NCBI GenBank assembly: GCA_014383215.1 | Contig: JACNIG010000210.1 | Coordinates: 1 to 34,003 of the forward strand | Direction: 5' to 3' | Length of the DNA stretch: 34,003 nt | Source of the DNA: Candidatus Desulfatibia vada | Lineage (GTDB): Bacteria > Desulfobacterota > Desulfobacteria > Desulfobacterales > UBA11574 | The notes under the pieces: model-generated | What the model was told of the DNA's origin: nothing | Seen by the model: only the letters and a program-made list of their open reading frames with translations | The model's database searches: none | Made by a program: the position numbers and the translations under genes | Shown here: in pieces, positions 25,436 to 26,334 of the stretch | Position numbering within the stretch: the stretch's first letter is position 1 | Layout of the letters: every line of letters starts with the position of its first letter

Positions 25436-25605
25436 AGAATACGGACTAAATTTTTATTTTTCTTGCATTTTTTTCTTGCATTTATTAACGTAATTTTATA
25501 TTCGAAAAGCTAGTCTGGACCGGTGGTTCACAGTTTGGGAAGATAGTAACCGCAGGGTTAAAGCCGAATACAATTTTCAAAATAGGCCTGTTGCTCTGCT
25601 TCCTT

Positions 25606-25747
25606 GAGACCTTTAAAAAATGCCAATTTTTGTTCGAGTTTAAGGAAGGCGAAAATTTTAACCACAGGAATACATTTAGTATTTCGAGGATTAAAATTTG
25701 AGCCTGACACAGAAATCGGGTAAAAAGGGGCGTTTTGTAAAGGTCTC
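25606..25747. repeat. 142-nt imperfect palindrome upstream of infC
   Basis: GAGACCTTT at 25606-25614 pairs with AAAGGTCTC at 25739-25747, and the interior continues to match with interruptions: AATGCC/GGCGTT, GGCGAAAATTTTAA against TTAAAATTTGAGCC, and GGAATAC against GTATTTC near the centre (~25673). It ends 35 bases before the infC ribosome site. It could be a dispersed palindromic element or part of the infC leader; the minus-strand frame across it (25485-25775) is a by-product. Confidence 0.65.
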
Positions 25748-25782
25748 CCCTATTGGTGAGCAATAACAAAAACATTTACTGT

Positions 25783-25797
25783 AGGAGGTGCAGGATA
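25783..25797 (+). promoter_or_regulatory. infC ribosome site and probable AUA start codon
   Basis: AGGAGG at 25783-25788 is followed after 6 bases by ATA at 25795-25797, in the infC frame. There is no ATG, GTG or TTG at suitable spacing; the nearest in-frame conventional starts (TTG 25753, GTG 25756) lie upstream of the ribosome site. IF3 discriminates against non-canonical starts, and infC is known to use AUU in E. coli and AUC in Myxococcus, giving autoregulation. Confidence 0.75.
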
Positions 25798-26334
25798 GCT
25801 GTAACAAAACGACCAAATAGACCAAGGAGGTCAGACAGAACATTTATAAATAAAAATATAAGAGCCAAAGAGGTTAGAGTAATCGATCCCGACGGAAATC
25901 AGATCGGTATTATCCCTACGTACAAGGCCCTTGCCACTGCTGGAGATTTTGGTCTTGACCTGGTTGAAATTTCTCCCAATGCAAATCCTCCTGTTTGTAA
26001 AATAATGGATTACGGTCGGTACAAGTATGAACTGACCAAAAAGAAACAGGAAGCAAAAAAGAAACAAAGCACCTTTCAGCTCAAAGAAATAAAGGTGCGC
26101 CCAAAAACAGGCGATCACGATTTGCAGACCAAAATCAACCATATCAAGAAGTTTATTGCTAAAAGGGACAAAGTTAAGGTAACCGTTATGTTCAGGGGTC
26201 GTGAAATTACGCTTTCCCAGCTTGGCAGAGATGTGCTGGAAAGAATTGTTCAAGAAACGGAAGAAGTTGCTACAGTGGAGCAATACCCCAAGTTTGAAGG
26301 CCGTACCATGTTTATGTTACTGGCACCGAAATAA
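25795..26334 (+). CDS. infC: Translation initiation factor IF-3
   Basis: A 179-aa IF3 starting at the probable AUA codon. The N-domain reads TFINKNIRAKEVRVIDPDGN, QIGIIPTYKALATA, LDLVEISPNANPPVCKIMDY. A lysine-rich linker (ELTKKKQEAKKKQ) leads to the C-domain with KEIKVRPKTGDHDLQTKI, VTVMFRGREITLSQLG and EQYPKFEGRTMFMLLAP. IF3 binds the 30S subunit and enforces start-codon and initiator-tRNA selection. It heads infC-rpmI-rplT-pheS-pheT. The usual upstream gene thrS is not present; a deaminase gene lies there instead, so the cluster probably has its own promoter in 25436-25780. Confidence 0.95.
   Translation: MAVTKRPNRPRRSDRTFINKNIRAKEVRVIDPDGNQIGIIPTYKALATAGDFGLDLVEISPNANPPVCKIMDYGRYKYELTKKKQEAKKKQSTFQLKEIKVRPKTGDHDLQTKINHIKKFIAKRDKVKVTVMFRGREITLSQLGRDVLERIVQETEEVATVEQYPKFEGRTMFMLLAPK

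Follow-up and report, generated by a model that had tools for sequence, protein, structure and literature searches.

The gene for translation initiation factor IF3 (infC) in Candidatus Desulfatibia vada almost certainly starts with AUA at position 25795, judging from its homologs. Over a whole bacterial order, the IF3 gene as a rule starts outside the usual ATG, GTG, and TTG codons, and IF3 N-termini in this order may therefore often be misannotated. We give a probability of roughly 85% to the full statement that infC has an AUA start, that this codon would be decoded by fMet-tRNA, and that IF3 would repress its own synthesis there, with the start resting on sequence comparison and the loop on analogy. 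The window, meaning the whole stretch of 34,003 nucleotides that was analyzed, holds the following features around this start.

25606..25747, + strand: 142-bp palindromic, MITE-like repeat in the infC leader, with arms GAGACCTTT.../...AAAGGTCTC; it supplies the AAAGG before TTG 25753
25753..25758, + strand: in-frame TTG (25753) and GTG (25756) from the open reading frame list, rival conventional starts judged unused (no credible Shine-Dalgarno sequence, not conserved)
25783..25788, + strand: Shine-Dalgarno sequence AGGAGG of infC, read from the sequence and part of a block conserved in the order (AGGAGGTG including the next two bases)
25795..25797, + strand: infC start codon ATA, shared as a homologous ATA by 123 of 128 order genomes
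25795..26334, + strand: infC, encoding IF3 in 179 codons and a stop (TIGR00168, 229 bits, E = 2e-68)

The infC locus and its start site

The initial annotation had described AGGAGG followed after 6 bases by ATA in the infC frame, and positions 25783 to 25797 do read AGGAGG-TGCAGG-ATA. The Shine-Dalgarno sequence is strong, its spacing of 6 is normal, and it is conserved across the order. Downstream of infC lie rpmI (26581) and then rplT (26974). We also observed a second perfect AAGGAGGT within infC at 25824-25831, 27 bases past the start and not followed by a suitable start codon; because congeners carry AAGGAGAT at this site, the internal copy is probably due to chance.

The local motif by itself carries no weight and occurs at chance level, since AGGAGG-N5-7-ATA has 71 matches in the 4.78-Mb assembly versus 87 for a reversed control pattern. 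The same counts led us to reject genome-wide use of Shine-Dalgarno-AUA starts. A 16S match, sought for comparison of the anti-Shine-Dalgarno sequence, was not found in the assembly. The case for the AUA start becomes strong only via comparison among genomes.

AUA is the prevailing infC start across the order

Within the family, 21 of 24 genomes yielded infC, and within the order, 178 of 194 did; its 5' end was read in 128 order genomes from 64 families. The start was ATA in 123 of these, ATC in three (L098, L128, and L257), and ATT in one (L042), with one genome left without an assignment. Six starts were assigned by eye, of which five were ATA (L094, L099, L109, L120, and L262); the sixth was the genome without an assignment (L037/G130), which lacks ATA at the infC start site. 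An ATG, GTG, or TTG start was assigned in none of the 128. This comparison over the order, which had been proposed as a check on the AUA start, thus bears out that reading, as ATA stands behind a Shine-Dalgarno sequence at the homologous position in 123 of the 128 genomes. The accompanying remark that AUA is rarer than AUU or AUC did not hold for this group: AUA is the rule in this order and occurs often in the rest of the phylum as well as in Rhodobacteraceae. Named records with an ATA start include Desulfatitalea alkaliphila, Candidatus Desulfaltia, and several Desulfobacteraceae metagenome-assembled genomes, which places the order at or near Desulfobacterales.

In 62 of 101 checked ATA genomes, no canonical codon occurs between the preceding in-frame stop and ATA, and in many order genomes that stop lies a few codons ahead of ATA (for example, TAG GAC ATA in L034 and TAA AGC ATA in L033). 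The rpmI and rplT genes of the same loci start with ATG. A profile of 119 aligned order starts, built from ATA starts only, showed a Shine-Dalgarno block, ATA, and GCT as the second codon, with little further upstream. The second residue of IF3 is mostly Ala, which is usual for a processed N-terminus.

Constraint on the third base of the infC start

We compared the third base of the start with that of two internal conserved Ile codons, positions at which Ile occurs in 104 of 105 sequences. The third base was A in 123 of 127 starts versus 38/104 and 31/104 at the internal positions (Fisher p ~2e-25 and ~7e-30, from a test that assumes independent genomes, an assumption that does not hold here). 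By this comparison, A is far more constrained at the infC start than at internal Ile codons, and selection on the AUA start codon is supported.

Whether selection would favor AUA specifically, rather than any near-cognate codon, is a more tentative matter, and we hold it possible but somewhat doubtful. AUA makes up 123 of the 127 assigned starts in the order, while AUA, AUC, AUU, and CUG are all used elsewhere in the phylum; under such selection AUA, perhaps with a fixed AUAG context, would hold IF3 at a level of its own, distinct from those under AUU and AUC. Reporters in Listeria rank ATG > ATA > ATT (PMC13068326), and from this greater strength of AUA over AUU we speculate that AUA could set a different IF3 level.

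A proposed autoregulatory loop

At 25795, we infer, the ordinary initiator tRNA (anticodon CAU) would decode AUA as formyl-methionine, and the strong Shine-Dalgarno sequence would compensate for the poor third-base pair. IF3 would in turn destabilize initiation at infC because AUA is a near-cognate start. A rise in IF3 would thus lower infC translation and a fall in IF3 would raise it, a homeostatic circuit of the kind known from E. coli infC. The E. coli precedent with AUU and the recognizable conservation of IF3 itself make autoregulation the likely reason for the AUA start. Of the E. coli IF3 positions compared, a set associated with 30S binding and initiation fidelity, Y75, R99, K110, R131, R133, R147, and R168 are identical here and positions 107, 112, 116, and 129 differ; these differences count against the loop. 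The sole initiator-type anticodon arm that we found is the usual CAU, in a tRNA cut by a contig end, and a special initiator tRNA reading AUA was rejected on this finding.

An alternative that accepts the AUA start is that it merely holds IF3 synthesis low, with no IF3 feedback in this group. Near-cognate starts do cut initiation on their own: S. aureus reporters gave ~10% of the AUG value when cells were in poor medium (PMC13009471), and the ranking of ATG > ATA > ATT in Listeria (PMC13068326) agrees with such an effect. Against this, IF3 discriminates against AUU, AUC, and AUA generally (PMC4611024), and it is precisely the gene for this discriminating factor that has retained a near-cognate start, while its neighbors keep ATG. 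We therefore regard low synthesis without feedback as unlikely and favor the autoregulatory loop.

Upstream in-frame codons and an inserted repeat

The initial annotation had also stated that no conventional start fits. This was correct only in part: upstream, TTG 25753 and GTG 25756 share the infC frame, but neither has a credible Shine-Dalgarno sequence. The longest infC open reading frame with conventional starts opens at TTG 25753, and no stop separates either codon from ATA. If translation started at one of them, IF3 would be 13 to 14 residues longer and ATA would be an internal Ile codon. Besides the open frame, this reading could draw on congeners G004 and G005, which have ATG at the position of GTG 25756, and on the 39 of 101 relatives that also have conventional in-frame codons upstream. 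However, a Shine-Dalgarno scan found no match before the ATG of G004 or G005, congener G003 has CCG at that position, and the sole Shine-Dalgarno-like bases before TTG 25753, a weak AAAGG, are the end of the inserted repeat. The extension would also be impossible in relatives with a stop just before ATA, and an internal Ile codon would be expected to vary at its third base like other Ile codons. Translation from TTG 25753 or GTG 25756 is accordingly very improbable, and ATA at 25795 stands as the preferred start.

The 142-bp repeat itself (25606-25747) has 22 matches in this genome, is absent from the infC leaders of congeners, and folds as one long hairpin (z = -7.5). Copies of this element, in either orientation, lie ~40-50 nt ahead of the infC start in L012, L013, L017, L020, and L264, the last belonging to another family, which suggests that the element inserted repeatedly at this spot of the infC leader.

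Stop-start overlap and upstream signals

Least probable of the alternatives is that a fixed ATAG/ATAA forms a stop-start overlap coupling infC to an upstream reading frame. In its favor, 118 of 119 order sequences have a purine directly after ATA, always creating TAG or TAA, and thrS of L046 does end so. Against it, of the 46 loci with sufficient DNA upstream, 45 have no Shine-Dalgarno-led open reading frame ending there, and the frame in question closes within a median of 9 codons. An Ala or Val second residue accounts for the purine. In L046, the terminal TAG of thrS overlaps the infC ATA start as ATAG; this was the only such case found, and with 1 of 46 loci, translational coupling via an AUAG overlap was rejected.

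No Rfam family reached its gathering score near infC, and a consensus promoter scan returned nothing on the + strand upstream of infC. At 25457-25502, we observed two direct copies of TTTTTCTTGCATT followed by TTGCAT-N15-TATATT, and similar sequence occurs in the leaders of the related L003, L004, L005, and L019. This region could be a candidate infC promoter, though it was absent from the output of the consensus scan.

infC starts beyond the order

We read 90 phylum genomes from other orders in the same way: about half had ATA, then came ATC, ATT, and CTG, and a few had ATG or GTG (some starts were assigned by eye, and a few were ambiguous). Among named genomes, we saw ATA in Rhodobacteraceae, Smithella, and Desulfovibrio-type genomes, ATC in Myxococcus, ATT in several Firmicutes, and CTG in Syntrophobacteraceae-type genomes. 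In the last type (L057, L077, L079, L157, L161, L277, and L301), infC appears to start with the near-cognate CTG behind a Shine-Dalgarno sequence. The start appears to be ATG or GTG in L291, L312, L286, L310, L058, L060, L063, and L064, although for L060, L063, and L064 either GTG or ATA could be the start.

The near-cognate character thus seems mostly kept while the codon itself shifts, as expected if IF3 control is selected. ATG or GTG starts in those few phylum lineages would abolish IF3 autocontrol, and the IF3 loop is therefore not universal. AUA, AUC, AUU, and CUG, together with the rare AUG and GUG lineages, form a natural series in which to study how IF3 feedback depends on the start codon.

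Comparison with known infC systems

In E. coli, infC starts with AUU and IF3 autoregulates its synthesis (PMC5472188). The gene analyzed here resembles E. coli infC in encoding IF3, in having a near-cognate start behind a Shine-Dalgarno sequence, and in being followed by rpmI and rplT. The two differ in the third base of the start, which is A here and U in E. coli, and in that thrS is not directly upstream here. Furthermore, autocontrol has been demonstrated for E. coli infC (PMC5472188), whereas here it is proposed by analogy.

The S. aureus infC gene starts with AUA, as mapped by ribosome profiling (Ribo-Ret; PMC13009471), and AUA as an infC start is thus already published and not new in itself. 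Codon and gene are the same in both cases, but the S. aureus start was mapped experimentally, while ours is drawn from conservation, in a group unrelated to S. aureus. Novelty may lie in how nearly AUA is fixed over an order, as judged from a literature search with most subscription papers missing. Streptomyces, with ATC (PMC5472188), and Listeria, with ATT (PMC13068326), likewise have near-cognate infC starts outside Proteobacteria, with third bases that differ from the A found here.
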